Part shown: one piece after another, positions 30,056 to 47,794 of the stretch
Layout of the letters: each line of letters begins with the position of its first letter
Position numbering within the stretch: position 1 is the first letter of the stretch
Assembly: GCF_022370755.2 (NCBI RefSeq)
Contig: NZ_CP092364.2
Span: forward strand, 5,270,001-5,334,000
DNA: 64,000 nt
Direction of reading: 5' to 3'
Origin: Mycolicibacterium goodii
Lineage (GTDB): Bacteria; Actinomycetota; Actinomycetes; Mycobacteriales; Mycobacteriaceae
Translations under genes and position numbers: made by a program
Notes under the pieces: model-generated
The model's input: only the letters and a program-made list of their open reading frames with translations
The model's database searches: none
What the model was told of the DNA's origin: nothing

Positions 30056-30802
30056 TCAACGTCCCCGCAGTCGCCCGCCGCTGACGTTGAGGATCGCGCC
30101 GCTGATCCAGTCGCCGGATGAGTCGAGGAGGTAGTGGGTCGCGTCGACCAGGGGTTGCGGTCCGCCAAATCCGAGCGGATGGTTCTGCAGGTATGCCGGC
30201 ACGTCGCTCGGGTCCATCGGCGTACCGGTGTTGCCCGTGGGGCCCGGCATCAGGCAGTTCACCAGGACGTTGTGTTCTTCGAACTGTGTGGCGAGGGCAA
30301 CGGTGAGGCCGATGAGTCCTGACTTGGACGCGCAATATGCGGGCGAGATGTTGCGGCCGCCGATATACACCGACGACGAACTGACGTAGACGATCCTGCC
30401 GTACTGCCGCTCCACCATGCCGGGCAATACAGCCTGGGTGCACCACCATTGCCCGGTCAGGTCGATATCGATGAGTCGCTTCCAGTGTGCCTCATCGATT
30501 TCCAGGGCTCGGCCGGGCTGGGCGTCGAGGCCGCCGTTGTTCACCAGAGCGTCGATACTGCCGAGATCACGTGTGACCTCATCGATGAGGCCGGTGACCA
30601 TCGCTCTGTCGGCGACGTCGACGTAATAGGCGCGTGCTTGCCCGCCGTCGCGGGCGATCGATTCGCCGACAGCGGCGGCCTTCTCGTAATCGATGTCGGC
30701 GAGGGCGACGGTCGCTCCGCGGGCCGCCAGTGAGCGCGCGATGGCTTCGCCGATGCCTTGAGCGGCACCGGTGACGAGGGCGACACGGTCGAAGTTGGTC
30801 AT
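30056..30802 (-). CDS. Short-chain dehydrogenase/reductase
   Basis: 248 residues of the classical SDR family. The cofactor motif is TGAAQGIG (about 10-17), Asp in LADIDYEKA favours NAD(H), NNGG replaces the usual NNAG, and the active site is Ser in VSSSSVY with YCASKSG (Tyr-x3-Lys). ATG 30802 has AAGGAGA. It is the last gene of the NCS1 permease-SDR-amidase-SDR unit on the minus strand. It oxidises a hydroxyl or reduces a carbonyl of a pathway intermediate; the substrate is unknown. Only 27% or so of SDR specificity can be guessed from sequence, so none is claimed. Confidence 0.88.
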   Translation of the reverse strand: MTNFDRVALVTGAAQGIGEAIARSLAARGATVALADIDYEKAAAVGESIARDGGQARAYYVDVADRAMVTGLIDEVTRDLGSIDALVNNGGLDAQPGRALEIDEAHWKRLIDIDLTGQWWCTQAVLPGMVERQYGRIVYVSSSSVYIGGRNISPAYCASKSGLIGLTVALATQFEEHNVLVNCLMPGPTGNTGTPMDPSDVPAYLQNHPLGFGGPQPLVDATHYLLDSSGDWISGAILNVSGGRLRGR

Positions 30803-30862
30803 GTGTTGTCTCCTTGAGAGTTGCTGGGGCACCGCTGATTCAGGCGATGGTGCGTCCCGGCT

Positions 30863-32278
30863 TCAGGCGGTGAAGTCGATCAGTGGCTCATAGGCGGGCG
30901 CGGTGAGCCGCCATGGGTGTGAGCGCTCCCATATCTCGGCGACGCCGAGTAGCCAGAGGTCGCGACCACGAGGTGCGATGACCTGCATGCCGAACGGCAT
31001 GCCATCGATTTCCCCGGCAGGCACGCTGAGGCCGGGGTGCCCGGTCAGGTTCAGAGCGGCGGTGTTGAACAAGTTGATGGGTACCGACTCGCCGACGGGG
31101 ACGTCGATTTTGCCGTCGGCGGGCAACCACGATCTGGTCAACGTTGGGGCCAGGAGGAGGTTGTCGGCCTGCAACAGGTCGTCGAGTACGCGGACGTATC
31201 GGCAGCGGTCGCGTCGGGCCCGGAGGTAGTCGTCGAGTGTTGTCTCCATCCCTCGATCAATCCACGGTGCGATCCTTTGATCGAGCGCGTCGTGATGCGC
31301 CTTCGCGAGGTCCCATCCCAGCGCGTACGAATCTTCGGCCGCGTAGATGGTGGCCCACACGTCGTCCGCCTCGGAGCTGAGAACACCCTCGTCGAGGATC
31401 TGCACTTCGCGTCCCAGTGCGGCCCCGAAATGCTCCACCGCATCGAGGAACGCGGTCTCGACGTCGGTGTCGATGGCTTCGTCCCCGGCGATTCGCCTGA
31501 CTGCGAAGATTTTCCCGACTGGGCGTTGGAGGTCGGAGCCGTCAGGCCCACGGACGCACGATGGGTCCCCATGGGCTGGGAGCAAAGTCAGTTCGGCCAA
31601 CAGTCGCAGATCGGCCACCGTATGCGCCAGCGGCGCGGTCGATGACAGATCGATCGGCAGGCGTGCCGCAGAGCTGCCGGCGACGCCGCTGGTCGGCTTG
31701 AGCCCGAGCAAACCACACAACGCAGCTGGTATCCGAGTGGACCCGCCTCCGTCGGTCCCCGTCGCGACGGCCGCGAGGCCCGCGGCGAGAGCGGCCGCCG
31801 ACCCGCCGCTCGACCCGCCGGGAGATTTGTCGCGCCGCCACGGGTTGTGTGTGGCACCGAAGACGAGATTGTCGGTGAATGACTCCATCGCGAATTCGGG
31901 CAGATTGGTTTTTCCGACGATGACCGCGCCGGCGGCGCGCAATTGAGCTGTGATCGTGTCGTCGCGGTCCGCGGGCGGGGATTCGGCGTACAGGAGTGAG
32001 CCGTGGGTGGTACGCATGCCGCGGACGTCGGTGTTGTCCTTGATCAGTGTTGGGACACCAGCAAGGGGCGGCAGGGCAGCACCCACCTTGCGCAGCCGAT
32101 CGATTTCATCCGCGCGCTTCAATGCGCCCTCGCCATCAAGTGCGACGACGGCGTTGAGATCGGAAGCGGCACCGATGCGTTTCAACGACGCCTCGGCGAG
32201 TTGGGTCGCTGTGCGGTATCCCCTGGCTTGCGCATCGGCCAGAGCGCTGAGCAGGCCGTGGGTTCGTGTCGCGCTCAC
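30863..32278 (-). CDS. Amidase signature family hydrolase
   Basis: About 471 residues. Catalytic Lys is in TLIKDNTDVRG (about 80). The Gly/Ser-rich signature is SPGGSSGGSAAALAAG and TGTDGGGSTRIPAALCG, giving Ser-cisSer-Lys. A GTG at 32278 overlaps the stop of the upstream SDR gene (GTGA), so I prefer it to the GTG at 32290. It hydrolyses an amide, releasing ammonia or an amine. In this operon it is flanked by two SDR genes and follows an NCS1 permease gene, so a nitrogen-containing heterocycle or amide taken up by the permease is the likely source of its substrate. Confidence 0.88.
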   Translation of the reverse strand: MSATRTHGLLSALADAQARGYRTATQLAEASLKRIGAASDLNAVVALDGEGALKRADEIDRLRKVGAALPPLAGVPTLIKDNTDVRGMRTTHGSLLYAESPPADRDDTITAQLRAAGAVIVGKTNLPEFAMESFTDNLVFGATHNPWRRDKSPGGSSGGSAAALAAGLAAVATGTDGGGSTRIPAALCGLLGLKPTSGVAGSSAARLPIDLSSTAPLAHTVADLRLLAELTLLPAHGDPSCVRGPDGSDLQRPVGKIFAVRRIAGDEAIDTDVETAFLDAVEHFGAALGREVQILDEGVLSSEADDVWATIYAAEDSYALGWDLAKAHHDALDQRIAPWIDRGMETTLDDYLRARRDRCRYVRVLDDLLQADNLLLAPTLTRSWLPADGKIDVPVGESVPINLFNTAALNLTGHPGLSVPAGEIDGMPFGMQVIAPRGRDLWLLGVAEIWERSHPWRLTAPAYEPLIDFTA

Positions 32279-33072
32279 ACCGAGTACCACGAGGTCGCTC
32301 CTCCGTCCACACGGACGACGGATCCGGTCATGAAGGATGACTGATCCGAAGCGAGAAATACTGCGACGGAGGCCAACTCGGCGGGTTCACCGTTACGGCC
32401 GAGCAGGATGAGGCGGTCCTGTGCCTCCGCGAGGCCAGGGTCTTCCTGAAAGAGCGTCAAGCCCCGCTCGGTGGCGATGGGGCCGGGAACGATGCAGTTC
32501 GCGCGGATGTTCTGGGCGGCGTGGTCCACGGCAAGTGCGCGCGTGAGGTTGATGATGCCCGCCTTGGCCGCGCAGTAGCCGACCGATCGGCGCGCCCCGA
32601 ACAGCCCGTACTCCGATGCGGTAGTGATGATTACGCCTCCGCCCACGCGATCCAGGGCCGGGATGCCGTATTTGGCCAGGTAGAAGGTACCGCTGAGGTT
32701 CACCGCGAGGCTGGATGCCCAGTCATCGAGATTGGTTTCGGTCGCGTTGCCCCAGTGGTGAATTCCCGCGTTGGCGTAGAGAACATCGATACGCCCGAAG
32801 TCGCGCTCGACGTCGGAAACCACCTGTTCCACCTGGGCGGGGTCAGCCACGTCGGCAGTGTAGGCCCGTGCGCCCGGTAAGCCTGCAGCAGAACCGATCT
32901 CGGCGACGACAGGTGCGGCGTCGGATAGGTCCACAAGCGCCACATGGGCGCCCGCGGCGGCGAACTTCAATGCGCCGGCACGGCCGATGCCGGTGGCCGC
33001 TCCTGTGATGACGACGACCTTGCCCGTGAGGTTGGGCAGATGCTGGGCAACGACCGGGGTTGCGATGCTCAC
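32275..33072 (-). CDS. Short-chain dehydrogenase/reductase
   Basis: 265 residues with GTG start 33072 and AAGGA upstream. The motifs are TGAATGIG, LVDLSD (Asp for NAD), YANAG, Ser in TTASEYG and the catalytic YCAAKAG. It has the classical SDR length and fold, though only about a third of its sequence resembles the SDR at 30.0 kb. The stop overlaps the amidase start, and the gene lies 70 bp downstream of the NCS1 permease gene. It is probably a catabolic dehydrogenase acting before or after the amidase step. Confidence 0.88.
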   Translation of the reverse strand: MSIATPVVAQHLPNLTGKVVVITGAATGIGRAGALKFAAAGAHVALVDLSDAAPVVAEIGSAAGLPGARAYTADVADPAQVEQVVSDVERDFGRIDVLYANAGIHHWGNATETNLDDWASSLAVNLSGTFYLAKYGIPALDRVGGGVIITTASEYGLFGARRSVGYCAAKAGIINLTRALAVDHAAQNIRANCIVPGPIATERGLTLFQEDPGLAEAQDRLILLGRNGEPAELASVAVFLASDQSSFMTGSVVRVDGGATSWYSV

Positions 33073-33142: not shown

Positions 33143-34606
33143 CTATCGAGGGATCTCGGGCGAGCTGACGATGACGCCGGGTTGGGCGGGTGTGACCGAG
33201 GGGGTTCTCCCCTGGAGCCGGTCAAGTGGCTGGAGCAGTACGTACGCCAGCGCGGAGACGACGAGCCCGAAAATCCATGAGATGTCCGCACCGTGGACGA
33301 TCTTGGCCAGCGGGCCCTCGTAGAAGCCGTCGACCACGAGGAATGGCGCCATGAACGCAAGCCCGATGGCGTAGGCGATCAGTCCTCGCATCGACCACAT
33401 CCCGTACGCGGTGCTCGGTCGCAGCAGGTCGGTGATGACAAATCGCCCGCGCTTGAGGACGAAGTAGTCGATGAGGTTGATGGCGGTCCAGGGTACGAGG
33501 ATGGCGAGGTTGAGTGTCAGCGCGTTACCCAGCGCGGTGAGCGCATCACCGGTGATGGATGTTCCGACCACGCCGACGAACAGACACACGACTACGATCA
33601 CCACCACCCGCGAGCGACTGGTGAAGATGGGTCTGCCGAACGAGCTACGAACCGTGACGGCCGAGAGCATCGTGCTGTAGGCGCTGGTCGCGTTGGCCGC
33701 GATGAGCGCGAGCACGGACGTGAAAGCGGCGAGATCGCCGAGGTGGGAGACGAGACCGTTTCCGACGTCGCGCATGCCGCTCAGCGCATCCGCCACACCG
33801 AGATACGAGGCCAGCCAGGTGCCCAGGCTCATCATCCACAGACCTGACAGTGCCGCTCCCCCGCCCACGGCGAGGATCATTTTCTTCGAACTCGTACTCG
33901 CCTTCATATAGCGGGTGTAGTCGGAGACATATGGGGCCAGCGTGATGTTGTAGCCGGCGGCGGCGGTCGCTTGGAAGATGAATCCGATGGTGGTGAATCC
34001 CAGCGCCGTGGACGTTGCCTCGTCGGCATGCGTGAAAGGTAAGGCGAAGGTGACCATCACGATGAACGGCAGTGAGACATATAGGAAGATCGTGTAGAGG
34101 CGGTGCAGCCAGTCATAACCCGACAGCGCCATCGCCATTGCGACGGCGGTGATGAGCCAGCCTCCGATCAATGCCGGGATGCCGAAGACTTTCTCGATCC
34201 CGTCGCTCGCGATCACCACCACCGTGATGCTCGACGCGACGAAAACGAAGACCGCCGAGAAGATGGGGAGGATGACTCCGCGGTGACCGAACTGCGCCCG
34301 AGACTGGATCATCTGCGGCAATCCGAGGTGGGGCCCCTGCGATCCGTGCAACGCCATGAACGTGGTGCCGACTACCAAGCCAAGGACGGTGGCGACCACG
34401 GACCAACCGAAGCTCAGCCCCATCGAGGGACCGATGAAGCCGATCGACATCGCGTAGAACTGGAAGTTGCTGAGGAACCAGAATCGAAATTGCTGTGCGA
34501 TTGTTCCGTGGCGTTCCTCGGCCGGCACATAGGACACGACCCGCTCGGAGTCGTTATCGATGGGTGTCTGATCCTCGACGGCTGACAGGCTTTGTCGCGC
34601 CATCAT
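33143..34606 (-). CDS. NCS1 family (cytosine/purine/hydantoin-type) permease
   Basis: About 487 residues with 12 hydrophobic segments, in the nucleobase:cation symporter-1 family. Landmarks are RFWFLSNFQFYAMSIGFIGPSMGLSF (key residues FQFYAMSIG), SRAQFGHRGVILP, YNITLAPYVSDYTRYMK and LVPWTAINLIDYFVLKRG. Members import cytosine, purines, hydantoins, uracil or allantoin. The start ATG 34606 is chosen because it overlaps the stop of a 20-codon upstream frame with its own strong Shine-Dalgarno. The in-frame GTG at 34651 lacks one. First gene of a four-gene minus-strand operon controlled from the IclR-flanked intergenic region. Confidence 0.88.
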   Translation of the reverse strand: MMARQSLSAVEDQTPIDNDSERVVSYVPAEERHGTIAQQFRFWFLSNFQFYAMSIGFIGPSMGLSFGWSVVATVLGLVVGTTFMALHGSQGPHLGLPQMIQSRAQFGHRGVILPIFSAVFVFVASSITVVVIASDGIEKVFGIPALIGGWLITAVAMAMALSGYDWLHRLYTIFLYVSLPFIVMVTFALPFTHADEATSTALGFTTIGFIFQATAAAGYNITLAPYVSDYTRYMKASTSSKKMILAVGGGAALSGLWMMSLGTWLASYLGVADALSGMRDVGNGLVSHLGDLAAFTSVLALIAANATSAYSTMLSAVTVRSSFGRPIFTSRSRVVVIVVVCLFVGVVGTSITGDALTALGNALTLNLAILVPWTAINLIDYFVLKRGRFVITDLLRPSTAYGMWSMRGLIAYAIGLAFMAPFLVVDGFYEGPLAKIVHGADISWIFGLVVSALAYVLLQPLDRLQGRTPSVTPAQPGVIVSSPEIPR

Positions 34607-34665
34607 GCGCCGGCTCGATCGTCGGAGCGGCCGGGCAGGCAGTTCTGCCACTCGGTGGAGATCAT
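34603..34665 (-). CDS. Putative 20-aa leader peptide coupled to the NCS1 permease gene
   Basis: ATG 34665 is preceded by AAGGGG at 6-nt spacing, the best Shine-Dalgarno in this leader. The frame encodes MISTEWQNC, then LPGRSDDRAGA, and stops in TGA at 34605-34603, exactly overlapping the ATG of the permease gene (ATGA). The permease start itself has no Shine-Dalgarno. This is the structure expected for a translationally coupled or attenuating leader peptide. It lacks runs of one codon, so simple amino-acid attenuation is not indicated. Short-frame coincidence is possible. Confidence 0.5.
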   Translation of the reverse strand: MISTEWQNCLPGRSDDRAGA

Positions 34666-34688: not shown

Positions 34689-34713
34689 ATGCTAGAGTGT
34701 GCGCATAGCGCGG
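34689..34713 (-). promoter_or_regulatory. Predicted promoter of the NCS1 operon with IclR-type operator (site A)
   Basis: On the minus strand TAGCAT (forward 34689-34694) is a TANNNT -10 element about 24 bp upstream of the leader ATG. The palindrome-like site GTGCGCATAGCGCGG at 34699-34713 sits 4 bp upstream of it, where a bound IclR protein would contact RNA polymerase. It matches four further sites in the window. Confidence 0.6.
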
Positions 34714-34779: not shown

Positions 34780-34903
34780 TTAAAACGGCCGAATGTGAAT
34801 CCCGGTCAGCCGCCATAGGCGGAAACGGCGGCTTACAAGCGGGGCGGTAGGTTCGACCGGACAGATCCGCGAGGTGATCGCGGGCACACACGGAGGGCAC
34901 AGG

Positions 34904-35704
34904 GTGGACGTGGATCACGAGCGTCACTTCGTGCAGTCGTTCGCCCGGGGTCTGGAGGTTGTCCGTACGTTCGCTCAGGCCCGTGACCGCTTGTCTGTCG
35001 CCGAGGTTGCCGATCTCACCGGGTTGTCCAGCGCCGCGGCTCGCCGGTTCGTGCTGACGCTGTCCGGCCTCGGGTATCTGCGGGCAGAGGGGCGGCACTA
35101 CGTGCTGACCACAAAGGTGTTGGAGTTGGGTGACGCGTATCTTGCATCAACCGCCCTGCCGGTGATTGCGCAGCCCCATCTCGACGAATTGGTGAGCACC
35201 GTGCGCCAAGCGACACCACTCACGGTGTTAGATAGCGGGATTGCGGTTCGCGAGGGCGACGCGGTCGTCTACATCGCCTACATCCGTGCCGAAGCCCTCT
35301 TCGTACTCAACGTCTCGACCGGGTCCCGGTACCCGGCATGGGTGGCGTCCACGGGACGGGTGCTCCTGGGCTCTGACACCGAGGAGAACATCGCGCGATA
35401 CATCGACCGGGTCGAGCTGATCAGGTACACCGACCACACCGTGACAAGCAAGGTCGCGTTGCGTCGTACTATCGCCGACGTCGCCAGGCAAGGCTGGGCG
35501 ATAGTCGACCAGGAGTTCGACGACCGGCTCTGCTCATACGCGGTGCCGGTCCACGACGGCTCACGCAACGCCGTTGCGGCGGTGAACGTTTCCGTCATGC
35601 ACAACGCAAAGTGCGGCGCCGAGCATCACGACGCGGTCATCGAAAGGCTCACCGACACGGCCAGACGGATCGAAACGTCACTGCGACAACGGGGTCGCGA
35701 GTAA
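34904..35704 (+). CDS. IclR family regulator, PcaR/PobR-like (paralogue 1)
   Basis: 266 residues with a GTG start preceded by GGAGGG at 6 nt. The N-terminal winged helix (about 10-75: HFVQSFARGLEVVRTFAQ, LSVAEVADLTGLSSAAARRF) and the effector domain with VLNVSTGSRYPAWVASTGRVLL and VDQEFDDRLCSYAVPV are typical of the PcaR/PobR-type IclR subgroup. It is clearly paralogous to the IclR protein at 47.0 kb. It is divergent from the NCS1 operon and flanked downstream by the ureohydrolase gene, so it is the likely regulator of both through the shared 15-bp palindromes. Confidence 0.92.
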   Translation: MDVDHERHFVQSFARGLEVVRTFAQARDRLSVAEVADLTGLSSAAARRFVLTLSGLGYLRAEGRHYVLTTKVLELGDAYLASTALPVIAQPHLDELVSTVRQATPLTVLDSGIAVREGDAVVYIAYIRAEALFVLNVSTGSRYPAWVASTGRVLLGSDTEENIARYIDRVELIRYTDHTVTSKVALRRTIADVARQGWAIVDQEFDDRLCSYAVPVHDGSRNAVAAVNVSVMHNAKCGAEHHDAVIERLTDTARRIETSLRQRGRE

Positions 35705-35929: not shown

Positions 35930-36922
35930 TTACTGATTGATCTTGCGGTCCGCGATCAGCGCGACCATCTCGTGCATGACGGCGGCCGCAACCATAGCGG
36001 TGACCTTGCTGGGCAGATCGCGCGTCGGCATGAGGCACACGACGTCGCCGCCGATCACGTTCTTGCCGCGCATGGCGCGAAGGATCTCGGTCACCTGATC
36101 GACGTTGAACCCAACCGTGCCGGCCTCAATGTTCGACACTCCCGGCGCCACGGTCACATCCAGGCAGTCGAGGTCAAACGTGATGTAGAGGGGCGCATCC
36201 CCGATGCGGTGCTGAATCAAGTCGATGATCTTGGCCGCTCCTTCTTCCTGATAACGCTTCATGGTCACCACGTCGTAGCCCAGTTCGTAGGAGCGGTCGA
36301 GCCAACCGGGGCTGCGTGGGTTGCCGCGCATGCCGATCTGCACACTCTTGGTGGCGTCGACATTGCCCTGATGAACCAGGTAGGCCGCCCAGTTGGCCGC
36401 CGATTTCCTGGCGCCCAGCCAGTGATCGAGGCTGTCGTAGGCGTCGGTGTGCGCATCAAAGTGCAGCAGAGCCACCTTCTCCCCCAAGGGCGAGGACTCA
36501 TCACCGGCGATGCCCTGGACGATTCCGCCGGTGATGCCGTGATCGCCCCCGATCGACACGGTGCGCGCTCCCGCTCGGAAGACGCGGTCGTAGTACGCCG
36601 AGATACGTTCGATGCTCTTCTCGTTGTCGGCATACTCGGGCAGCGGCACGTCGCCGAGGTCGGCGACGTTCACCGCGTCCCAGGCCATGAAGCCGAAGTC
36701 GTCGTGGTACCGGCGCGCGTTGGCTGAGATATCACGAACCGCACGGGGGCCGTGATGCTGGTCGCGCAGCGTGGTGTTGTTGCCGGAAGAGTGTGGGACA
36801 CCGATCAGCGCGATGTCGACGCCTTCCGGGCTTTTGGCATGGGGTGCCCGGAACAAAGTCGGGATACCCCACCACTCCAGCATCTCCACCATCATGACGT
36901 CGGCCGCATCGTCGTGACTCAC
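35930..36922 (-). CDS. Ureohydrolase (agmatinase/guanidinobutyrase) family protein
   Basis: 330 residues; GTG 36922 has GAGGAGA upstream. All dinuclear Mn-ligand motifs of the arginase/agmatinase family are present: GGDHGIT, LLHFDAHTDAYDS and TFDLDCLDVTVAPG. Family members release urea from guanidino compounds (agmatine, guanidinobutyrate, guanidinopropionate, guanidine). The segment after the last metal motif is atypical: DVTVAPGVSNIEAGTVGF replaces the usual DP..APGTGTPE.GG loop that helps select the substrate. It is therefore not safely called agmatinase. It is monocistronic, with a predicted IclR operator (site B) 22 bp upstream and a terminator behind it. Confidence 0.87.
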   Translation of the reverse strand: MSHDDAADVMMVEMLEWWGIPTLFRAPHAKSPEGVDIALIGVPHSSGNNTTLRDQHHGPRAVRDISANARRYHDDFGFMAWDAVNVADLGDVPLPEYADNEKSIERISAYYDRVFRAGARTVSIGGDHGITGGIVQGIAGDESSPLGEKVALLHFDAHTDAYDSLDHWLGARKSAANWAAYLVHQGNVDATKSVQIGMRGNPRSPGWLDRSYELGYDVVTMKRYQEEGAAKIIDLIQHRIGDAPLYITFDLDCLDVTVAPGVSNIEAGTVGFNVDQVTEILRAMRGKNVIGGDVVCLMPTRDLPSKVTAMVAAAVMHEMVALIADRKINQ

Positions 36923-39360: not shown

Positions 39361-40968
39361 ATGTCGGATAAAAACGTGCCCACAGAACGGTCATCAGTGA
39401 TCGAATCATATGGTGTAGAACCGATTCCGCCTGAGGCGCGCACCTCCACACCATGGGACTTCTGGCGCATCGCAACGGGATCCGTCCTCACGACCGCGAC
39501 CGTGCTGCTCGGCACTTTGCCGATCGCACTCGGATTGAGCCTCACCGCCGCAGCGACCGCCATCGTCGTCGGGGTATCGGTGGGATCCTTGCTCCTCGCG
39601 CCGCTGGCGTCCATCGGCCAGCGCTCACACACCAATAACGCGGTGTCCTCCGGGGCTCACTTCGGTGTGACCGGCCGCGTCGTGGGTTCCGTTCTCTCGC
39701 TCCTCATCGCCATCACCTTCTTCACCCTGTCAGTGTGGGTGTGCGGTGACGCCGCCGTCTCGGCGATCGGATTGTTCACACCGGAGTTCGCCAGCGACTT
39801 CACTGCCGCGATCGCCTACGGGTTGGCGGCGCTGGTCACGTTCGCGATCTGCATCGTCGGCTACCGTTGGCTGCTGGCGGCGAACAAGTTCCTCGCCCCC
39901 GCCATGCTGGTCCTGATGGCCCTCGGGTTTGTGGCACTTGGCGGGCGTATCGACGTCGATTATCCCGGAACCGGGGAGTACGCCCTCGGCGGCTTCTGGA
40001 CCACCTGGTCTGCTGCAGTGCTCATCGTTATGGCCAATCCCGTGTCGTACGGTCCGTTCCTCGGCGACTGGTCCCGCTATGTGCCACAACATGTTCCGGC
40101 GCGACACCTCCGGATCGCAGTTGTCGTCGCACAAATCTCCTCGCTAATCCCGTTTCTCTTTGGGGCCGCCACAGCGGCATTGGTACCCGACGCCGCCGCC
40201 TATATCGCCGGGCTGGTCGACATATCCCCCGCCTGGTACGTCGCACCGCTGATCGTCGTGCTCATCGGGGGCAGCCTCGGCGGTAGCGTCTCGTCGCTGT
40301 ATGGCACCGGGCTGGACTTCTCGTCGGTCATCCCTCGCCTCAACCGCATGCAGGCCACGATCGCGATCGGCGCCGTATCCATCGTCCTGGTCTTCCTCGG
40401 CCGGTTCGTCTTCAACCTCATTGACACCATCAACGCCTTCACGGCCCTTATCCTCGTGTTATCTGCGCCTTGGATGTCCATTCTGCTCGTCGGATACCTG
40501 ACTCACCGGGGTCACTATCTAGTCGAAGACCTGCAGGTCTTCAACCGCGGGCAGGAAGGTGGCGCGTACTGGTTCAGCCGCGGTTACAACATCCGCAGCA
40601 TGGTCGCCTGGATTTCCGGCGCCGCAGTGGGTCTGCTGACGGCCAACACCGCGCTCATCGCCGGCCCGCTCAAGGACATCGCGGGCGGTATCGACGTCAG
40701 CTTCTTCTTGTCCTTCCTCCTCAGCGGTGCCGTGTACTGGATCGCATTGGTGTTGTTTCCTGAGCCTGCTTACGTCTTTCCCGACGCCGGGCCGCGACTG
40801 GCGCCGTGCCGCCGCGACGCCGTGACGCCACCGCCTATCGTGATCGTAGATGCGGAATTGGCGCACCGCAGGCAGCCTTCGGCCCGCGAGCAACGCGAAG
40901 AAGCCCAACAGCACCAGCATCCGGCACAGACCCGGCCCGCCGGCCCCTCCGCACCCTCGTTGGATTGA
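39361..40968 (+). CDS. NCS1/purine-cytosine permease family transporter
   Basis: 535 residues with about 12 hydrophobic segments over the first 480. The signature FWRIATGSVLTTATVLLGTLP, SRYVPQHVPA after GPFLGDW, and LIDTINAFTALILVLSAPWMSIL place it in the purine-cytosine permease branch of NCS1. The last 55 residues form a low-complexity hydrophilic tail (RREAQQHQHPAQ-like), which may be an artefact of a late stop or a cytosolic extension. It is third in the MFS-creatininase-NCS1 operon. It differs from the NCS1 protein at 33-34.6 kb, so the region encodes two carriers with probably different ring compounds. Confidence 0.87.
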   Translation: MSDKNVPTERSSVIESYGVEPIPPEARTSTPWDFWRIATGSVLTTATVLLGTLPIALGLSLTAAATAIVVGVSVGSLLLAPLASIGQRSHTNNAVSSGAHFGVTGRVVGSVLSLLIAITFFTLSVWVCGDAAVSAIGLFTPEFASDFTAAIAYGLAALVTFAICIVGYRWLLAANKFLAPAMLVLMALGFVALGGRIDVDYPGTGEYALGGFWTTWSAAVLIVMANPVSYGPFLGDWSRYVPQHVPARHLRIAVVVAQISSLIPFLFGAATAALVPDAAAYIAGLVDISPAWYVAPLIVVLIGGSLGGSVSSLYGTGLDFSSVIPRLNRMQATIAIGAVSIVLVFLGRFVFNLIDTINAFTALILVLSAPWMSILLVGYLTHRGHYLVEDLQVFNRGQEGGAYWFSRGYNIRSMVAWISGAAVGLLTANTALIAGPLKDIAGGIDVSFFLSFLLSGAVYWIALVLFPEPAYVFPDAGPRLAPCRRDAVTPPPIVIVDAELAHRRQPSAREQREEAQQHQHPAQTRPAGPSAPSLD

Positions 40969-41135: not shown

Positions 41136-42308
41136 TTAGGCAGTTCCACGGCCGCACACAGCGATTGCGGCGTCGCCGACCGCGGAAAGGTGCTCGTCGG
41201 TCATTGCCGTCGACAGCGACAGCAGACCGTTGGTGCCGGCCAACACTCCGGCCTGGTACAACCTCCACCACGTAGTCTGCGGGTCGTCGGTGATCAGCCT
41301 GATCAGAGAGCCGCTGCCATGGGCGGCGATCCCGTTGTCATTGAGTCTCGCCCGGAGGGCGTCACCGCGGTTGTTGAGTTCGGTGACGGCCAGCGGGGAG
41401 TACCGGCGCAGCGCAACCAGGCCTGCAGCCATGGTCACCGGGTTGGCACTGAAGGTGCCACCCCACGCCACCGGTCCGTCGGTGAGCGGGCTGAACGACG
41501 ACAACACGTCGGCCCGACCGCCAACTGCGCCGACGGGGAAACCACCGCCGATGACCTTCCCCAGCGAGATCAGGTCTGGGCTGAATCCGTAGCGGGTGTG
41601 TAAACCCCCGTGCTCAAGCCGAAACGTGATTACCTCGTCGACCGCCAGCAGTACGTCATGCTCGCGAGTCAACGAGACCAGCCGGTCGACGTCCTCTGCG
41701 TGCGCCGGCACCAGTCCGGCACGGTTGGGCATCAGATCGATCAGCAAGGCAGCCACCCGGCCGGGATGCTCCATCAGGGCGCGTTCAACTGCGTCGATAT
41801 CGCCCTGGGGCACTTCGATCACAGAGTCTTGCACCGCACGTGCGACGCCCTTGGCGCGTGTGGAGACGACGGCATCGTAGGTGCCGTGATAGCTGCCTTC
41901 GAAGCGCACGATGATGTCGCGGCCGGTGTAGGCCCGTGCGGCGCGGATGAGCATCATGACCGCCTCGGTACCTGAATTGCAGAATCGCCACTGTGGGATG
42001 CCGCCGGTACGTTGCACCAGCGTTTCGGCCATCTCCACTTCATATCGAGTGGGCAGTCCGAAAGCTGTGCCGTCAGCGGCGGCCACGCGTGCCGCGTCGA
42101 GAATCTCCGGGTCGGCATGTCCGTGAATCAAGGAGGTGTAGTTGTTGTTGCAGTCGATGACGACGTGTCCATCGACGTCGGTGACCTCAGCGCCTTTGCC
42201 GTGAGCCGCATACGGGGGGTGCGGTGCGACGAAAACCGTTGAGCGGGTGTTCCCGCCCGGCATGACCTCGACAGCGCGCTGGTAGAGCCGCTCATGAGAA
42301 CGTGACAT
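41136..42308 (-). CDS. Class III aminotransferase, glutamate-1-semialdehyde aminomutase-like
   Basis: 390 residues; ATG 42308 has AAGGA. Class III fold: YQRAVEVMPGGNTRSTV near the N-terminus, FCNSGTEAVMMLIRAARAYTGR, EGSYHGTYD, LAVDEVITFR and the PLP Lys in ISLGKVIGGGFPVGAVGG. The closest fold relatives are HemL-like aminotransferases, but hemL itself sits with heme genes. Here it is the last gene of an operon with an amine oxidase, an aldehyde dehydrogenase and an amidohydrolase, so it probably transaminates an amine or beta-amino acid in the pathway. A 150-bp gap separates it from the isochorismatase gene. Confidence 0.88.
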   Translation of the reverse strand: MSRSHERLYQRAVEVMPGGNTRSTVFVAPHPPYAAHGKGAEVTDVDGHVVIDCNNNYTSLIHGHADPEILDAARVAAADGTAFGLPTRYEVEMAETLVQRTGGIPQWRFCNSGTEAVMMLIRAARAYTGRDIIVRFEGSYHGTYDAVVSTRAKGVARAVQDSVIEVPQGDIDAVERALMEHPGRVAALLIDLMPNRAGLVPAHAEDVDRLVSLTREHDVLLAVDEVITFRLEHGGLHTRYGFSPDLISLGKVIGGGFPVGAVGGRADVLSSFSPLTDGPVAWGGTFSANPVTMAAGLVALRRYSPLAVTELNNRGDALRARLNDNGIAAHGSGSLIRLITDDPQTTWWRLYQAGVLAGTNGLLSLSTAMTDEHLSAVGDAAIAVCGRGTA

Positions 42309-42461: not shown

Positions 42462-43220
42462 CTAGACCCGGGAGCCACTTTCGGTCTCGCTGAGTTCAGC
42501 CATGCAATCTTCACTGCTCAGCACGTCACAGACGATCATCTGACAGTTCCGAAGCGATGCGAAGTGCATCTCTTCGGCAGTGACGTAATGCGTCTCTTTG
42601 GTAATCGGGTGCAGGGTCGTGCCGCCGATCGTGCCAAGGCAGTCGTGCACCATCACCGCGTTGAAATTGCGGAAATTGGCGTCCCGAGCAGTCGATTCAC
42701 AGCACGACCCCGTCGCTACACCTGTGATCAGAACGGTATCGCGCTCCAAGTCGCGGAGGAGCTGCTCGAGTCCGGTTTGGTAGAACCCGCTCATCCGCTT
42801 GCGTTGAATGAACCAGTCTCCGTACTTCTCTGCGGACAGCGGCAATTCGGGGATTACCTGAACACCGAACGTCCCTTCGCGCAGACCCTTGCCACCGTCA
42901 TCACGTAACGCAGGCCGTTTGTCGAAGACAGGGCCTCCATCGATCCGGCCACGGCATGCGTACGTCAGACAGATCACCGGAATGCCGTGCTCGTGGCAGA
43001 ACTCGACGAGTTTCACGGTGGGTTCGACGGTCCGGGTCATGTGGGAGATGTCGAATCCCGTACGAGCGTACGCCCCGTCCGGGTGAAACCACTCGTTTTG
43101 AAAATCGATCAGGATCAACGCCGTCCGGTCAGACGACAACGTGGGCGAGATGCGGGCGATGCTTGCCGCCCCGTCAGGCGTGTTCGCCGGACGAGGTGCG
43201 TTCGCGCGTGTGGCGACCAT
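42462..43220 (-). CDS. Isochorismatase-family cysteine hydrolase (N-carbamoylsarcosine amidase-like)
   Basis: 252 residues. The Asp-Lys-Cys catalytic triad is visible: Asp in ALILIDFQNEWFHPDGA, Lys in FIQRKRMSGFYQTGLE and Cys in ITGVATGSCCESTARDANF. This family includes N-carbamoylsarcosine amidase, biuret and ureidoacrylate hydrolases, and nicotinamidase. The neighbours (amine oxidase, DUF1989, aldehyde dehydrogenase, ureohydrolase and creatininase) favour a carbamoyl- or ureido-compound as substrate. ATG 43220 starts 5 bp after the DUF1989 stop. Confidence 0.88.
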   Translation of the reverse strand: MVATRANAPRPANTPDGAASIARISPTLSSDRTALILIDFQNEWFHPDGAYARTGFDISHMTRTVEPTVKLVEFCHEHGIPVICLTYACRGRIDGGPVFDKRPALRDDGGKGLREGTFGVQVIPELPLSAEKYGDWFIQRKRMSGFYQTGLEQLLRDLERDTVLITGVATGSCCESTARDANFRNFNAVMVHDCLGTIGGTTLHPITKETHYVTAEEMHFASLRNCQMIVCDVLSSEDCMAELSETESGSRV

Positions 43221-43225
43221 GGCGT

Positions 43226-43963
43226 CTACAGGCCGGTCTTCTCGACCGGACGGCCCCGCTCGCGCAGCTGTTGGTGCAGCCATGTGTAGTGGTCGAGTAC
43301 TGGGAACGGCTCAGCCTCGGTGTCCTCGAAGATCTCGATCTTGACCGATGTGCAATTGCCCGCATTGCACGCGGTGGTGATGTCCTCGGGGCAGTTGGCG
43401 AATGCGACGAGCACATCCATCTCTGCGCGGAACTCGATGTAATCGCCGGCCTTGGTGATCGGTTCGTTGATGAAGAACCCGTCGCGATCGCGGTCGTAGG
43501 GGTAGTTCATGAAGACGTTCATGGGGTCTGGTACTTCGGTGTAGTCGACACCGAACGGTGCGATGGCCTTACCGATGATCTCGTGGCAGCCGTCGACGTC
43601 CACTCCACCCAGGACGTTCATCATGAAGCGATTGCACATCCGATGGTGCAGATCGTGCACACCCTTGCGCTCGGCCGTCTCCTTGAGAATCGTCATCAGC
43701 GGACGGCAGCTTGTCGACATGAGCCAATCGCCTTCGCCGATGGTGTTGCGCGGCAGGTATTCCGATCCCTGCGGTGCGAAGTAGCGGGAGCGGGAGTAGC
43801 TCGCCGACAGCTTCTCCCGACGGTCGTCGTTGTTCCAGACGACGAAGTCGATGACCTGTTTGCCTTCGAGGTCGGTCAGCCGGACGATCTGGCCCTGCTT
43901 GACGATGCCGGCGTAGCCCTCCTTGGCCCCGACGACCTGTTCTTCGATCTTGTTCAGTGACAT
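43226..43963 (-). CDS. DUF1989 (urea carboxylase-associated) family protein
   Basis: 245 residues; ATG 43963 has GAGGAGA. The family landmarks are QVIDFVVWNNDDRREKLSAS, the LPRNTIGEGDWLMS segment, MCNRFMMNVLGG, DGCHEIIGKA, PMNVFMNY and the C-terminal cluster CPEDITTACNAGNCTSVK. Conserved Cys/His residues suggest a metal site. Paired DUF1989 proteins have been described as carboxyguanidine deiminase in guanidine degradation. Here only one copy exists and no urea/guanidine carboxylase gene is in the window, so a related deiminase or hydrolase step on another guanidino/ureido compound is inferred. It is central in the amine oxidase-ALDH-DUF1989-isochorismatase operon. Confidence 0.87.
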   Translation of the reverse strand: MSLNKIEEQVVGAKEGYAGIVKQGQIVRLTDLEGKQVIDFVVWNNDDRREKLSASYSRSRYFAPQGSEYLPRNTIGEGDWLMSTSCRPLMTILKETAERKGVHDLHHRMCNRFMMNVLGGVDVDGCHEIIGKAIAPFGVDYTEVPDPMNVFMNYPYDRDRDGFFINEPITKAGDYIEFRAEMDVLVAFANCPEDITTACNAGNCTSVKIEIFEDTEAEPFPVLDHYTWLHQQLRERGRPVEKTGL

Positions 43964-43995: not shown

Positions 43996-45540
43996 TTACT
44001 TGGCGACCGGAAGGGTGCGACTCTGCTCACGGGCGAAGCCCGGCAGATACCAGGGACCGAGGCCGCCCTTGCCTGCCGATCCGCTGGACTTCCAGCCGCA
44101 GAAGGACTGGATACCGGGCCAGGCGCCGGTGGTCGCACCCGTGCGTCGGTTGACGTACAGGACACCGGCCTCGATCCGATCCAGGAACTCCTCGACCTCG
44201 GTGTCGTCGGCGCTGAAAACGCCTGCCGCAAGGCCGTAGTCGACCGCGTTAGCCTCATCGATCGCGGCGTCGAAGGAGTCGACCTTGGTCACCGTGACGA
44301 AGGGCAGGAACAGTTCCTTGCGGGTGAGTTCGTGCCCCAACGGCAGACCCGAAACCACGGTCGGGTTGACGAAGTATCCGTCCCGGTCCGGTCGGTCACC
44401 GCCGGCGTCGATGCTGGCGCCGTCGGCCTGGGCGCTGGCCACCGCCTTCTCGAAGCGCGCGACGGCGGCTTCGTCGATCACCGGCCCCATGAAGGCGTCG
44501 GCGTCTTCGGGAGCCGACACGGTCAGCGCGTTCACACGCTCAGCGAGTTTGGCGACGAACTCGTCGTGCACGGACTCCTCGACCACGACACGTGAGCAGG
44601 CCGAGCACTTCTGCCCGGACAGCCCGTAGGCCGAGCGCACCACTCCTTCGGCGGCGGCATCAAGATCGGCGTGTCGGGATACCACCGTGACGTTCTTGCC
44701 GCCCATCTCTGCCAGCACCGGCCGGCCGAACGGGCCATCGCTTAACGCACGCACCATCTGCCAGCCGATCTCTGCGGAACCGGTGAAGGCGATGCCGTCG
44801 ACAGCGGCGTCGGCGAGAGCCTTGCCGGTGGTCGCACCGCCGTGGATGAGGTTTACCGCACCGGACGGGAGGTGGCGAGCGAGGATCTCGGCGACGGTGG
44901 CGCCTGAGCGGGGTGCCTTATCCGACGGCTTCATCACCACGGTGTTGCCCATCAGCAGCGCGGCGGTGGCCATGCCGACGTTGAGCGCGGCCGGAAAGTT
45001 GAAGGGGCCGATGACCGCGAAAACCCCGTAGGGCCGCAGCAGATCGGTGTTCTCCTCTTTCGGGTCGGCGGTCTTCATTCGCTTACGGAAGTCACCGGAC
45101 TCCTCGAATTGCGTGGTGTAGGTGTCGACGAGGTCCACGACCTCCTGCGCCTCGCCGAGCGCTTCAAGCCGCGACTTTCCCGTCTCGGCCGACACGATGC
45201 CCGCGATCTCCACTAGCCGGTCCTGGAACTCGCGCTGGGCGGCTCGCAGCCCTTCCGCGCGCTTGACCGTCGATGTTCTGCGCCAGTCACGCTGCGCCTG
45301 TTTGGCTGCGACCACCGCGGCCGCCACGACCGACTCGTCGCCGGCGTGCGCCTCGGTGACGATTTCGCCCGGGTGCGCCGGATTGACCCGCGCGAACACC
45401 TCACCGGTGTTGACCTCGCGCCCTCCGATGAGGTGCGCCAGTGTGCCGCCGGCAGTGCGACCCTTCTCCAGTGCGGCCTCGAAAGCCGCTGCGGTGTCTG
45501 CGTCGGTGTTAGTGCTGGCGTAGTTCACGCGTGTGCTCAC
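43996..45540 (-). CDS. Aldehyde dehydrogenase family protein
   Basis: 514 residues. GTG 45540 overlaps the amine oxidase stop (GTGA). NAD-dependent ALDH fold: IGPFNFPAALNVG, TVVMKPSDKAP, IAFTGSAEIGWQMV, the Glu in LAEMGGKNVTVVS and the catalytic Cys in SGQKCSACSR. That Cys context, together with FFVNPTVV-like YFVNPTVVSG, resembles delta-1-pyrroline-5-carboxylate/semialdehyde dehydrogenases. It would oxidise the aldehyde made by the preceding amine oxidase or the aminotransferase to an acid. The exact semialdehyde is unknown. Confidence 0.91.
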   Translation of the reverse strand: MSTRVNYASTNTDADTAAAFEAALEKGRTAGGTLAHLIGGREVNTGEVFARVNPAHPGEIVTEAHAGDESVVAAAVVAAKQAQRDWRRTSTVKRAEGLRAAQREFQDRLVEIAGIVSAETGKSRLEALGEAQEVVDLVDTYTTQFEESGDFRKRMKTADPKEENTDLLRPYGVFAVIGPFNFPAALNVGMATAALLMGNTVVMKPSDKAPRSGATVAEILARHLPSGAVNLIHGGATTGKALADAAVDGIAFTGSAEIGWQMVRALSDGPFGRPVLAEMGGKNVTVVSRHADLDAAAEGVVRSAYGLSGQKCSACSRVVVEESVHDEFVAKLAERVNALTVSAPEDADAFMGPVIDEAAVARFEKAVASAQADGASIDAGGDRPDRDGYFVNPTVVSGLPLGHELTRKELFLPFVTVTKVDSFDAAIDEANAVDYGLAAGVFSADDTEVEEFLDRIEAGVLYVNRRTGATTGAWPGIQSFCGWKSSGSAGKGGLGPWYLPGFAREQSRTLPVAK

Positions 45541-46733
45541 TGCTGTGCTCCTTGCAGGTTGACTCCGGCGAGTGCCGGATCGGATGTTGCGATACGGGTT
45601 GAGTCCCACTTCGATCCCGGGCCCGCCATCGACGGGGCGACCCCTTCGAGGTACTCGGCGACCGTCTTGCCGATGGCCGGGGCGAGCTGGATACCGTTAC
45701 CGCCCGCGCCGAGCGCGCAGTAGACCCGGGCGTCGGCGGGATGCGGGCCGACCACCGGTTGCTGGTCGAAAGACATCGGGTACATGCCCGCCCAACCACG
45801 GCCCAGTCCTGCGCCCTCCAGGCCGGGCAGTCGTTCGGCGAGGGCCTCGGCGATCTGTTCGGTGAACGCCTCGTCGGCGTTGTACGAGACCCTGTCGGGG
45901 TCGCTCGCCTCCTGGATCGTCTCCTCGGTGTGCAAGCCGGCGAAGAGGGAGGCCTTGTTCTCGTGACGGAAGTACAACCCTGCTCGGCCGCTGCCGGGTA
46001 CGTAGTCCATCACCGAGGTCATGGTGTAACCCAGTGGCTTGTTCAGGGTGACCGTGATCGCTTGGTGGCGTTGCGGGTTCATCGTCACGGGCGCATCCAG
46101 CAGCTCTCCGACCCTGCCCGCCCAGCCGCCGGCCGCATTGACGACGACGTCGGCCACAATCGGCCCACGGGTGGTGTCCAGCACGATTTCCTCGCCACGA
46201 CCGCATGTCGCCCCAAGCACCTTGGCCTTCTGCATGATCGTCGCCCCGTTCCGGCGCGCGATGTCGCCCATCAGGTTGGCGAAGAGATGCCCGTCCAGGT
46301 AGCCGTCGCTGGGGCCGTAGAGGCCCCCCGCCCGGTCACCCATTTCCAAATGCGGTACCAGAGATTTGATTTCAGACTTCCCCAGCACCCGGGCATCGTC
46401 GATGCCGTGCCTCTTCTGTAGGTCGACGCTGCACGCATACCGCTCGAGTGCTTCGTCGGAGTCCCCCAGGCGCAGGTATCCGTTTCTGTTGAAGTGCAGG
46501 CCGTCACTGGCGACCAGCTCCTCAACGAACCGCAACCCGAAGGCCCGCACCGCGATGTCGAATTCGTCCATGTACTGCGTCTCGACGATGCCGATCGACC
46601 GGCTCGACGATCCCTCGGCGATGTATTCGGCCTCTAACACGATGATGTCGAACTTGCCGGAGCGGGCCAAATGCAACGCCGCCGACAGACCGACTGTCCC
46701 CGCGCCGACGATCGCCACGCGCGTTTTGGTCAT
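45537..46733 (-). CDS. FAD-dependent amine oxidoreductase, DAO/sarcosine oxidase beta-like
   Basis: 398 residues; ATG 46733 has GAGGA. The FAD motif is VAIVGAGTVGLSAALHLARSG (key GAGTVG). EGSSSRSIGIVETQY is the DAO-family segment after the second strand, VVNAAGGWAGRVG is typical of sarcosine/dimethylglycine-type enzymes, and GAGGNGIQLAPAIGKTVAEYL is the C-terminal flavin contact. It lacks the folate-binding domain of dimethylglycine dehydrogenases. It is first in its operon, divergent from the second IclR gene, with operator site D 26 bp upstream. It probably oxidises a secondary or primary amine to an aldehyde handled by the ALDH. Confidence 0.88.
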   Translation of the reverse strand: MTKTRVAIVGAGTVGLSAALHLARSGKFDIIVLEAEYIAEGSSSRSIGIVETQYMDEFDIAVRAFGLRFVEELVASDGLHFNRNGYLRLGDSDEALERYACSVDLQKRHGIDDARVLGKSEIKSLVPHLEMGDRAGGLYGPSDGYLDGHLFANLMGDIARRNGATIMQKAKVLGATCGRGEEIVLDTTRGPIVADVVVNAAGGWAGRVGELLDAPVTMNPQRHQAITVTLNKPLGYTMTSVMDYVPGSGRAGLYFRHENKASLFAGLHTEETIQEASDPDRVSYNADEAFTEQIAEALAERLPGLEGAGLGRGWAGMYPMSFDQQPVVGPHPADARVYCALGAGGNGIQLAPAIGKTVAEYLEGVAPSMAGPGSKWDSTRIATSDPALAGVNLQGAQQ

Positions 46734-46773: not shown

Positions 46774-46863
46774 GATAGATCGTTATGCGCCCGCATCAGT
46801 GTGACGTCCACTGCGCTTGACGTCAATACCGCTGCTAAAGAGTCTTCTAGCTGATGGCCGTAT

Positions 46864-46878
46864 GACCGCATAGCGAAC
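46864..46878. promoter_or_regulatory. IclR-type operator candidate upstream of IclR paralogue 2 (site E)
   Basis: GACCGCATAGCGAAC keeps the central CGCATAGCG and the AC end. It lies 95 bp upstream of the IclR start. A TATCTT -10-like element follows at about 46917-46922, so it would be an upstream regulatory site for that gene. Confidence 0.5.
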
Positions 46879-46972
46879 ACCTGCGGGGAAATGCCCCTGG
46901 TTTCGATCCCGCCCGGTATCTTCGTAGTGCGCTCCGCTCCGGAGGCAGCGAGGACGCACAGAAGGAACTCCG

Positions 46973-47794
46973 ATGGATGACGATCGTGAACGCCACTACG
47001 TCCAGTCGCTCGAACGGGGACTGGCAGTAATCCAGTCTTTCAGCGACTCCCGCGACCGTCAGACGATTGCCGACGTCGCTGAATCAACGGGTCTGACCCG
47101 CGCCGCGGCTCGCAGATTCATACTCACGTTGGTGGACCTGGGCTATCTGCGAGCCGAGGGGCGCTACTTCGCGATGACTCCCAAGATCCTCGAACTGGGA
47201 TACTCCTACCTGGCCTCGGCGCCCCTGTCTGCCACCGTCCTGCCGCACCTCAACGAGTTGATCTCCGCAGTGCGTGCCGGCACGCCACTGTCCATCCTCG
47301 ACGCCGGCCTGACCGTCTTGGAGGGCGTCGACGTGGTCTACATCGCCCACACGCGTGCCGAAAACCTCTTCATGCTCAACGTCTCAACCGGCACGCGATT
47401 TCCGGCGTGGATCACCTCGACCGGCCGGATGCTGCTCAGCGCGCTCAGCGACGATGAGCTCGAGACATACCTGCAGAGCGTCACGCTGACCAAGTACACG
47501 GATGAGACGGTGGCGTCGAAAGCGCAACTGCGCAAGAGTATTCGCGAGATCGGCGAGCGTGGCTGGGCGGTCCTCGATCAAGAGTTCGACGAAAGACTCT
47601 GCGCCTACGCTGTCCCCGTCTACGATCGGTCGCAACACCCAGTGGCCGCGTTGAACCTTTCGGTGATGCACACCTCATCGCGCCCGAAAGAGTCCGAGTC
47701 GGCATTGATAACCGCGATGACCAATACCGCGGCGCGCATCGAGGCCGACCTGAGGCTGCGGCGCGGACCCAATGACCTGACGCAGACCTTGTAG
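46973..47794 (+). CDS. IclR family regulator, PcaR/PobR-like (paralogue 2)
   Basis: 273 residues; ATG 46973 has GAAGGA. The N-terminal winged helix is HYVQSLERGLAVIQSFSD, IADVAESTGLTRAAARRF. The effector domain contains FMLNVSTGTRFPAWITSTGRMLL and LDQEFDERLCAYAVPVYD. It aligns almost end to end with IclR paralogue 1 (shared YLRAEGRYF/YLRAEGRHY, VYIAHTRAE/VYIAYIRAE, NLSVMH/NVSVMH). It is divergent from the amine oxidase operon. Two paralogues at the two ends of one region, with one site type, suggest shared or competing control. Confidence 0.92.
   Translation: MDDDRERHYVQSLERGLAVIQSFSDSRDRQTIADVAESTGLTRAAARRFILTLVDLGYLRAEGRYFAMTPKILELGYSYLASAPLSATVLPHLNELISAVRAGTPLSILDAGLTVLEGVDVVYIAHTRAENLFMLNVSTGTRFPAWITSTGRMLLSALSDDELETYLQSVTLTKYTDETVASKAQLRKSIREIGERGWAVLDQEFDERLCAYAVPVYDRSQHPVAALNLSVMHTSSRPKESESALITAMTNTAARIEADLRLRRGPNDLTQTL

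Follow-up and report, generated by a model that had tools for sequence, protein, structure and literature searches.

A candidate catabolic gene set for a cyclic guanidino compound in Mycolicibacterium goodii and on Rhodococcus plasmids

Creatinine is classically broken down by a creatininase, an M24-type creatinase and a sarcosine oxidase. RutB and BiuH are enzymes that cut ureido groups, and CgdAB systems are recognized by a pair of DUF1989 proteins matching the UAAP1 and UAAP2 models together with a urea (guanidine) carboxylase; we take DUF1989 to be a superfamily that includes carboxyguanidine deiminase. The CgdAB carboxyguanidine deiminase is described in the accessible part of PMC11271267. 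Here we describe a set of 15 genes (the module) at positions 30056-47794 of a 64,000-nucleotide stretch (the window) of Mycolicibacterium goodii contig NZ_CP092364.2 (5,270,001-5,334,000; the genome is a single contig of 6.74 Mb). With about an even chance, in our judgement, the module is a horizontally mobile, IclR-controlled catabolic set for a cyclic guanidino compound with a glycocyamidine- or creatinine-type ring.

In the proposed pathway, NCS1 and MFS carriers would import the cyclic guanidino compound, a creatininase-like enzyme would hydrolyse the ring amide to yield a guanidino acid, and a ureohydrolase would cleave this acid to give urea and an amino acid, in the role that creatinase has in the classical route. 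A DUF1989 protein and a RutB/BiuH-like hydrolase may convert a guanidino or ureido by-product to ammonia and CO2, and an FAD-dependent oxidase, an aldehyde dehydrogenase and an aminotransferase would carry the amino-acid skeleton to a central acid. We infer the reactions, their order and the substrate, candidates for which are creatinine, another glycocyamidine and the 2-aminoimidazole fragment of 2-aminobenzimidazole.

The creatininase-like amidohydrolase (38581-39318, + strand) matches Pfam PF02633 with 140.9 bits against a cut-off of 31.3 and aligns over its full length with the Pseudomonas putida creatininase (1j2t), keeping EAH, D, HYEN, two W, H and E, which are presumably the metal ligands and catalytic residues. 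A mycofactocin MftE role for this homologue was set aside (74.3 vs 172 bits). The arginase-family ureohydrolase (35930-36922, - strand) belongs to its superfamily by a PF00491 match with the GGDH, FDAHxD and FDxDxxD metal motifs, and its best solved relatives are 3-guanidinopropionase 3nip (161 bits) and guanidinobutyrase 3nio (132 bits), indicating superfamily kinship only. Comparison with 13 aligned relatives revealed three motifs, WWG close to the N-terminus, APGVSN and CLMPT, common to the group with small variations and absent from the single outgroup aligned. At least 2379 proteins fall in this group at an expect value (E) of 1e-60 or better, among 8000 candidates scored, and many are automatically named guanidinopropionase. 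Two identities for the ureohydrolase were rejected: metformin hydrolase, since the match to its subunits is weak (55-61 bits), and an enzyme of agmatine or arginine use (126.4 bits vs an agmatinase cut-off of 174.3, with no decarboxylase or ornithine genes in the module). On marine Rhodobacterales plasmids of Ruegeria and Alisedimentitalea (L010, 11977-13958; L011, 11977-13931), a 55% identical relative and another ureohydrolase form a tandem pair that follows a betaine-type ABC carrier, an arrangement that may recall two-subunit ureohydrolases such as metformin hydrolase.

The first-pass annotation had noted that no classical creatinase was visible and that the ureohydrolase might take its place. 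A genome search with one query, a Shinella M24 protein encoded beside a creatininase and for that reason presumed to be a creatinase, agrees with the first point: the best creatinase-like match is 26% identical (52 bits) in the window genome and 28% (57 bits) in that of Rhodococcus qingshengii, with nothing above 29% in either. The second point gains support from one of the 11 other plasmid records that bear a creatininase gene (E 1e-25), all of which were inspected. In Rhizobium sp. CIAT894 (L102, 4971-6698), the one such case among the 11, a ureohydrolase starts on the base right after the creatininase and no M24 gene lies within 5 kb. This ureohydrolase is only 34% identical to that of the module; a ureohydrolase beside a creatininase without an M24 gene has been seen twice, in unrelated settings.

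The module is conserved as a unit in two genera. Pfam searches of the window proteins at 30056-47794 recovered all of the enzyme and carrier families listed in the first-pass annotation (two NCS1 permeases, MFS carrier, creatininase, ureohydrolase, amidase, DUF1989 protein, aldehyde dehydrogenase, aminotransferase, short-chain dehydrogenases (SDRs) and others), and by order and strand the genes form four units besides two IclR genes: NCS1a-SDR2-amidase-SDR1 (-), the ureohydrolase (-), MFS-creatininase-NCS1b (+) and oxidase-aldehyde dehydrogenase-DUF1989-hydrolase-aminotransferase (-). Orthologues of 12 of the 15 genes, with 69-94% identity, occur on the 288-kb plasmid of R. qingshengii CX-1, a carbendazim-degrading strain from carbendazim-contaminated soil (module genes HRR33_RS33160 to RS33225), including the ureohydrolase (93.6%) and the creatininase-like enzyme (77.3%). 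The gene order there preserves the same operons, with the oxidase-to-aminotransferase operon inverted relative to the window, and two further genes, for an NAD-glutamate dehydrogenase and another MFS carrier, belong to the plasmid version. As for the remaining three genes, NCS1a has no match among the CX-1 plasmid genes compared, the amidase has no plasmid relative at E 1e-60 and is 34% identical to another amidase near the Rhodococcus set, and the regulator IclRa is 56% identical to the same single Rhodococcus IclR that matches IclRb. In R. qingshengii JCM 15477, genes for the DUF1989 protein, ureohydrolase, creatininase, hydrolase, aminotransferase, oxidase, MFS carrier and NCS1b lie at matching positions. 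Close full-length matches in the plasmid collection came from two records, both R. qingshengii (CX-1 and JCM 15477); this species is grouped in the same family as the window organism but in another genus, and the match among the family genomes falls at exactly the positions seen in the plasmid record of JCM 15477.

A 15-bp palindrome lies ahead of the operons in the window. The exact core GCGCATAGCGCA has two sites in the whole genome (36944-36958 and 37183-37197), both in the ureohydrolase/MFS promoter region, and weaker copies are found ahead of NCS1a and IclRa (GTGCGCATAGCGCGG, 34699-34713, one mismatch) and between the oxidase and IclRb (GACCGCATAGCGAAC, 46864-46878, two mismatches). The strict form G[GT]GCGC..AGCGC, a pattern drawn from the very sites counted, has five sites in a 45-kb Rhodococcus plasmid stretch (0.27 expected), all five in the three module promoter regions (ureohydrolase/MFS, IclR/oxidase and SDR/MFS), and two in the window (0.4 expected), both at module promoters. 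When a matrix was built from the five Rhodococcus sites alone, the module sites of the window ranked 1, 2, 5 and 7, and ranks 3, 4 and 6 fell outside module promoters. The reverse matrix, from the four window sites, placed six of its top seven matches in the plasmid stretch in module promoter regions; rank 4 (L009 12749, score 15.0) lies inside the hydrolase gene of a plasmid dioxygenase operon, a site tied with rank 7 (L009 12474, score 12.7) lies in the gap ahead of the ferredoxin gene of that operon, and one strict plasmid site (23504) is outside the top 12 matches listed. A common operator-like site thus precedes the operons and is kept in a relative, the pattern taken here to mark an IclR regulon, suggesting that the operons are probably co-regulated and that IclR may bind the palindrome. 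The single regulon predicted by the first-pass annotation therefore holds fairly well, as do its guanidino/ureido theme and the proposed ring opening and urea release; the amidase and NCS1a, which have no Rhodococcus orthologue, may lie outside its core.

Two further enzymes are candidates for nitrogen release. The DUF1989 protein (43226-43963, - strand; 82.9% to the Rhodococcus plasmid copy) scores 99.8 vs 284.7 and 52.2 vs 205.95 bits against the UAAP1 and UAAP2 models, and the module has a single DUF1989 gene and no carboxylase in a search confined to the module genes, leaving it short of the CgdAB pattern. Its structural model (predicted local distance difference test, pLDDT, 85.4) matched, at E 0.001, chains of two solved DUF1989 proteins only. 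The isochorismatase-fold cysteine hydrolase (42462-43220, - strand; 88.8%) was modelled with a pLDDT of 81.6, and its best structural match is RutB, followed by 3irv and BiuH, with the Asp, Lys and Cys positions kept, which we take to be the catalytic triad. It falls below the NCBIfam equivalog cut-offs for RutB and biuret hydrolase (72.6 vs 377.95 and 67.5 vs 370 bits), and carbamoylsarcosine amidase (1nba, 33 bits) is in the same fold family, RutB and BiuH being closer. Rut-type uracil breakdown and the guanidine carboxylase route were both set aside, as the module genes include no RutA-like monooxygenase and no carboxylase.

The class III aminotransferase (41136-42308, - strand; 79.9% to the Rhodococcus plasmid copy) is nearest to 6k8h and ForI, and then equally to glutamate-1-semialdehyde aminomutases and beta-phenylalanine aminotransferase. 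The FAD-dependent oxidase (45537-46733, - strand; 78.6%) is related to sarcosine oxidase, dimethylglycine dehydrogenase and glycine oxidase, and sequence comparison indicates that the aldehyde dehydrogenase (43996-45540, - strand; 84.6%) is delta-1-pyrroline-5-carboxylate (P5C)-dehydrogenase-like.

Neighbours of carrier relatives support the guanidino/ureido theme. For the NCS1b permease (39361-40968, + strand; 81.7%), an agmatinase-annotated gene lies about 0.5, 4 and 5 kb from the relative in all three annotated loci inspected, of 13 plasmid records outside the module. One of the three, a Pseudomonas aeruginosa stretch, is, we assume, the gbuA region and its agmatinase-annotated gene GbuA, to which the module ureohydrolase is 31% identical. 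For NCS1a (33143-34651, - strand), two loci were inspected of 29 records; a DUF1989 gene adjoins the relative in one, and ureohydrolase, isochorismatase and amidase genes occur in the other. The creatininase gene directly follows that of the MFS carrier (37217-38584, + strand; 85.8%), and the accessible part of PMC8864220 places homologues of the creatine carrier CreT usually beside a creatinase or creatininase, a parallel that concerns gene setting. On a conjugative Klebsiella plasmid (L097, 6998-14793), the NCS1b-like permease is grouped with a ureohydrolase, an aldehyde dehydrogenase and an ABC carrier of the amino-acid type; another Klebsiella plasmid has 13 places matching the permease, and on a Paraburkholderia phymatum plasmid (L110, 2352-7194) an NCS1b-like permease (27% identity) lies with a creatininase and a creatinase-like M24 gene.

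The module is rare. Of 301 genomes of the same family, two carry the DUF1989 gene at E 1e-60, one of them the window genome; at E 1e-80 this gene occurs in one of 394 genomes of the class, and at E 1e-40 the hydrolase gene occurs in one of 397 of the order, in both cases the window genome itself. At E 1e-25, 18 of the 1631 candidates scored from the protein database are relatives of the isochorismatase-fold hydrolase; for the DUF1989 protein, at least ten of the 120 matches listed share 64% identity or more. Judged only by equal lengths of the longest contig, relatives of the DUF1989 protein and the hydrolase may share contigs (12602, 12043 and 1604287 bases, the last from Paracoccus pantotrophus), and so may those of the DUF1989 protein and the ureohydrolase (842819 and 12602 bases). 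P. pantotrophus as a third carrier was sought in 394 genomes of its presumed family with no match, in a search that had no positive control. A genome-collection scan of 51 DUF1989 loci, excluding matches that covered less than 45% of the query, gave no match at E 1e-8 to the module ureohydrolase, creatininase, NCS1, aminotransferase or hydrolase, and scattered SDR, ABC, amidase, aldehyde dehydrogenase, IclR and similar matches. Because its spread is patchy and its home in Rhodococcus is a plasmid, we regard the module as presumably horizontally mobile. The GC content of the window (0.60-0.69 in 2-kb steps) shows no sharp island edge, and a search for repeats at the borders of the set led nowhere. 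An insertion test with the neighbouring GAF-domain gene found matches in 11 of 41 relatives' genomes at E 1e-60; in the other genomes identity is 45% or less, so there is no clean empty site to compare.

Several observations weigh against a cyclic guanidino substrate and a single regulon. The creatininase-like protein falls below the NCBIfam TIGR04448 cut-off (169.5 vs 235 bits), so creatinine need not be its substrate, and 7 of the 11 other plasmid creatininase loci have an M24 creatinase-like gene within 5 kb, with a ureohydrolase in one and neither in three. The M24 proteins of these seven loci are 63-92% identical within their group and, judged by gene position, would be creatinases. The ureohydrolase group yielded no relative with a known activity, in an alignment that did not include GpuA. 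DUF1989 also occurs in trimethylamine N-oxide demethylase (34 bits in one sequence comparison, 61.5 bits in another), so deimination is not the sole chemistry of the fold, and one of the two ways in which the module would release nitrogen is superfluous for any substrate that does not bear two groups of this kind. Plasmids of Mesorhizobium, Phyllobacterium and Caballeronia bring together an aminotransferase, an FAD oxidase and an aldehyde dehydrogenase where the annotation shows no ureohydrolase, creatininase or DUF1989 gene close by; of six loci with aminotransferase or oxidase relatives, these three had all three genes, one the aminotransferase alone, one the oxidase and aldehyde dehydrogenase with SDRs and a cytosine permease and no aminotransferase, and one, lacking annotation, was set aside. 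Finally, loose copies of the palindrome, a motif itself derived from the module promoters, are not enriched: at one mismatch or fewer the genome has 47 sites, below the 89 for a reversed control pattern, and at two or fewer the window has 15 against 10.0 expected, a number that 7 of 100 shuffles reach. The case for a regulon thus rests on position, exactness and conservation in Rhodococcus rather than on the total count.

A different reading, which we consider unlikely, makes the Rhodococcus module the lower pathway of 2-aminobenzimidazole (carbendazim) breakdown, in which a 2-aminoimidazole or 2-aminoimidazol-4-one fragment is dismantled by the creatininase-like enzyme and the ureohydrolase; the window organism would then use a natural 2-aminoimidazole-type compound. 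Ring hydroxylation and extradiol cleavage would leave the fragment: cleavage of dihydroxylated 2-aminobenzimidazole at the ring fusion is expected to give 2-aminoimidazol-4-one, the ring type that a creatininase opens. This fits the origin of CX-1 and the fact that both close-match plasmid records are R. qingshengii, as well as the position of the CX-1 module, which adjoins genes for a biphenyl-dioxygenase-like ring-hydroxylating oxygenase, an extradiol-type VOC protein and a BphD-like hydrolase; the two middling motif matches, at L009 12749 and 12474, lie within the operon of this dioxygenase. Reviews locate mheI, hdx and edo on a 288-kb plasmid 2 of CX-1 and call the later steps unresolved; the genome paper of strain djl-10 reports the genes after MheI as unknown in that strain, and X2, a formyl-imidazoline carboxylate, has been reported in another strain. 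Against this, the module and the dioxygenase part are separated by an open reading frame that resembles, by eye, an IS3-type transposase gene, and there is no motif match (best 0.4) in the 400 bases holding the start of the first dioxygenase-operon gene. The window genome lacks a dioxygenase orthologue (best 38% over about 200 residues) and a VOC orthologue (36-38%), and mheI was not found in the CX-1 plasmid bases covered (1-65000 and 238100-288048). Moreover, the published schemes deaminate 2-aminobenzimidazole first to 2-hydroxybenzimidazole, in which case the guanidino group would be lost. In its wider form this idea supposes an undescribed pathway for a 2-aminoimidazole or 2-aminoimidazolone ring, in which opening of the creatininase type is followed by the arginase-fold ureohydrolase and by a deiminase-carbamoylase pair made up of the DUF1989 protein and the RutB-like hydrolase; in Rhodococcus this pathway would be the missing lower part of carbendazim breakdown, encoded on the plasmid, and this too we consider unlikely. 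On the CX-1 plasmid (L087, 14084-19583; L009, 92-13355), a second DUF1989 gene (28.6% to that of the module), an APC permease, a tautomerase, a fumarylacetoacetase-like protein, an IclR and an amidase lie near the dioxygenase genes; this group is perhaps the true 2-aminobenzimidazole cluster.

Distinctly doubtful, in our view, is a plain creatinine/creatine pathway, in which creatinine would pass through creatine to sarcosine and urea by way of the ureohydrolase and sarcosine would be oxidized by the FAD oxidase. The kept active-site positions of the creatininase, its place right after the MFS gene as in the usual setting of CreT homologues, the kinship of the oxidase with sarcosine and glycine oxidases and the shared fold of the hydrolase and carbamoylsarcosine amidase all agree with it. 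However, the creatininase scores under its equivalog cut-off, the hydrolase is closer to RutB and BiuH than to 1nba, the P5C-dehydrogenase-like aldehyde dehydrogenase and the aminotransferase have no evident role in sarcosine breakdown, and the human guanidino-acid hydrolase rejects creatine and guanidinoacetate according to the accessible part of PMC9772407.

A linear guanidino or ureido acid of the beta or gamma type is an improbable substrate; under this reading the creatininase homologue would act as some other kind of amidohydrolase, as further members of that family do. The solved relative closest to the ureohydrolase is a 3-guanidinopropionase, the hydrolase resembles the ureidoacrylate amidohydrolase RutB, an NCS1b relative lies in the P. 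aeruginosa locus that we presume to be the gbuA region, and the aminotransferase is related to beta-phenylalanine aminotransferase (to aminomutases equally, and to ForI and 6k8h more), but the creatininase-like enzyme keeps its presumed active-site positions, and its gene has not left the operon in either genus. That unrelated operons with different inducers merely lie side by side, as two IclR paralogues and the amidase and NCS1a without Rhodococcus orthologues might suggest, is very improbable given the common motif at the module promoters and the 12 of 15 genes kept between genera.

The remaining module genes code for two SDRs, an amidase and two regulators. SDR1 (30056-30832, - strand) is 68.6% identical by blastp to an SDR of the Rhodococcus regulon and SDR2 (32275-33072, - strand) 69.8% to a second one, with the accessory amidase-signature amidase (30863-32290, - strand) between them. 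IclRa (34874-35704, + strand), whose best NCBIfam model is PcaR/PcaU, below the cut-off, is 55% identical to IclRb (46973-47794, + strand), and the latter shares 82.1% identity with the single Rhodococcus regulator. Five genes were given starts that make them shorter than their longest open reading frames, as the orthologues from Rhodococcus indicate: oxidase 46733 (longest 46880), aldehyde dehydrogenase 45540 (45609), hydrolase 43220 (43283), aminotransferase 42308 (42452) and SDR2 33072 (33360). Directly beside the module, at window positions 48461-55917, a sarcosine-oxidase-like oxidase, a PuuR/cupin regulator, an ABC transporter of the Pot type and another oxidase appear to make up a locus of their own for polyamine-like uptake and oxidation. 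The other flank (23708-29979) encodes a 2-oxo acid or acetoin dehydrogenase complex (E1 alpha, E1 beta, E2 and E3) and then the GAF-domain protein, whose identity of at most 45% to its counterparts in the relatives searched suggests that this neighbourhood may vary too.

Titles and abstracts listed in searches of the open literature, a scope that most subscription journals lie beyond, describe neither this gene combination nor a creatininase together with a ureohydrolase or a DUF1989 protein, and a search there for 2-aminoimidazole breakdown led nowhere. The chemistry is not new in kind; what appears undescribed is the combination, guanidino or creatinine catabolism with a ureohydrolase for creatinase and an added DUF1989/RutB-like branch. 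Its characterization would help to assign functions to an abundant, automatically named ureohydrolase group, a stand-alone DUF1989 protein, two types of NCS1 permease and a very small family of hydrolases. A gap in the carbendazim literature, the later steps and their genes, would likewise become directly testable, since the CX-1 plasmid credited in the accessible reviews with the upper genes carries the module.

Compared with the classical creatinine route, the module is alike in a creatininase with kept positions, a plausible urea-releasing second step and a related FAD oxidase, and differs in having no close M24 gene, an arginase-fold ureohydrolase instead, and additional DUF1989, RutB-like hydrolase, aldehyde dehydrogenase, aminotransferase and IclR genes. 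With the Pseudomonas GbuA and GpuA pathways it shares the ureohydrolase superfamily and an NCS1b-like permease, found in P. aeruginosa beside the agmatinase-annotated gene; the module enzyme is, however, distant from that gene, our presumed GbuA, and is joined by a creatininase-like enzyme. The guanidine, metformin and guanylurea systems CgdAB, GuuH and MfmAB/MetCaCb draw on the same DUF1989, isochorismatase-fold hydrolase and ureohydrolase families, the placement of GuuH being our assumption, whereas the module has a single DUF1989 gene, no urea carboxylase or allophanate hydrolase among its genes, and a ureohydrolase far from the metformin hydrolase subunits. Last, the set of Corynebacterium glutamicum ATCC 14067 (CreT, CrnA, CshA, HyuB, CodA and CrnT, as given in the accessible part of PMC8864220) is controlled by AmtR where the module has IclR, and no hydantoinase or creatinine deaminase is found among the module genes, but the two sets have in common an MFS gene, a creatininase and an isochorismatase-fold amidase.

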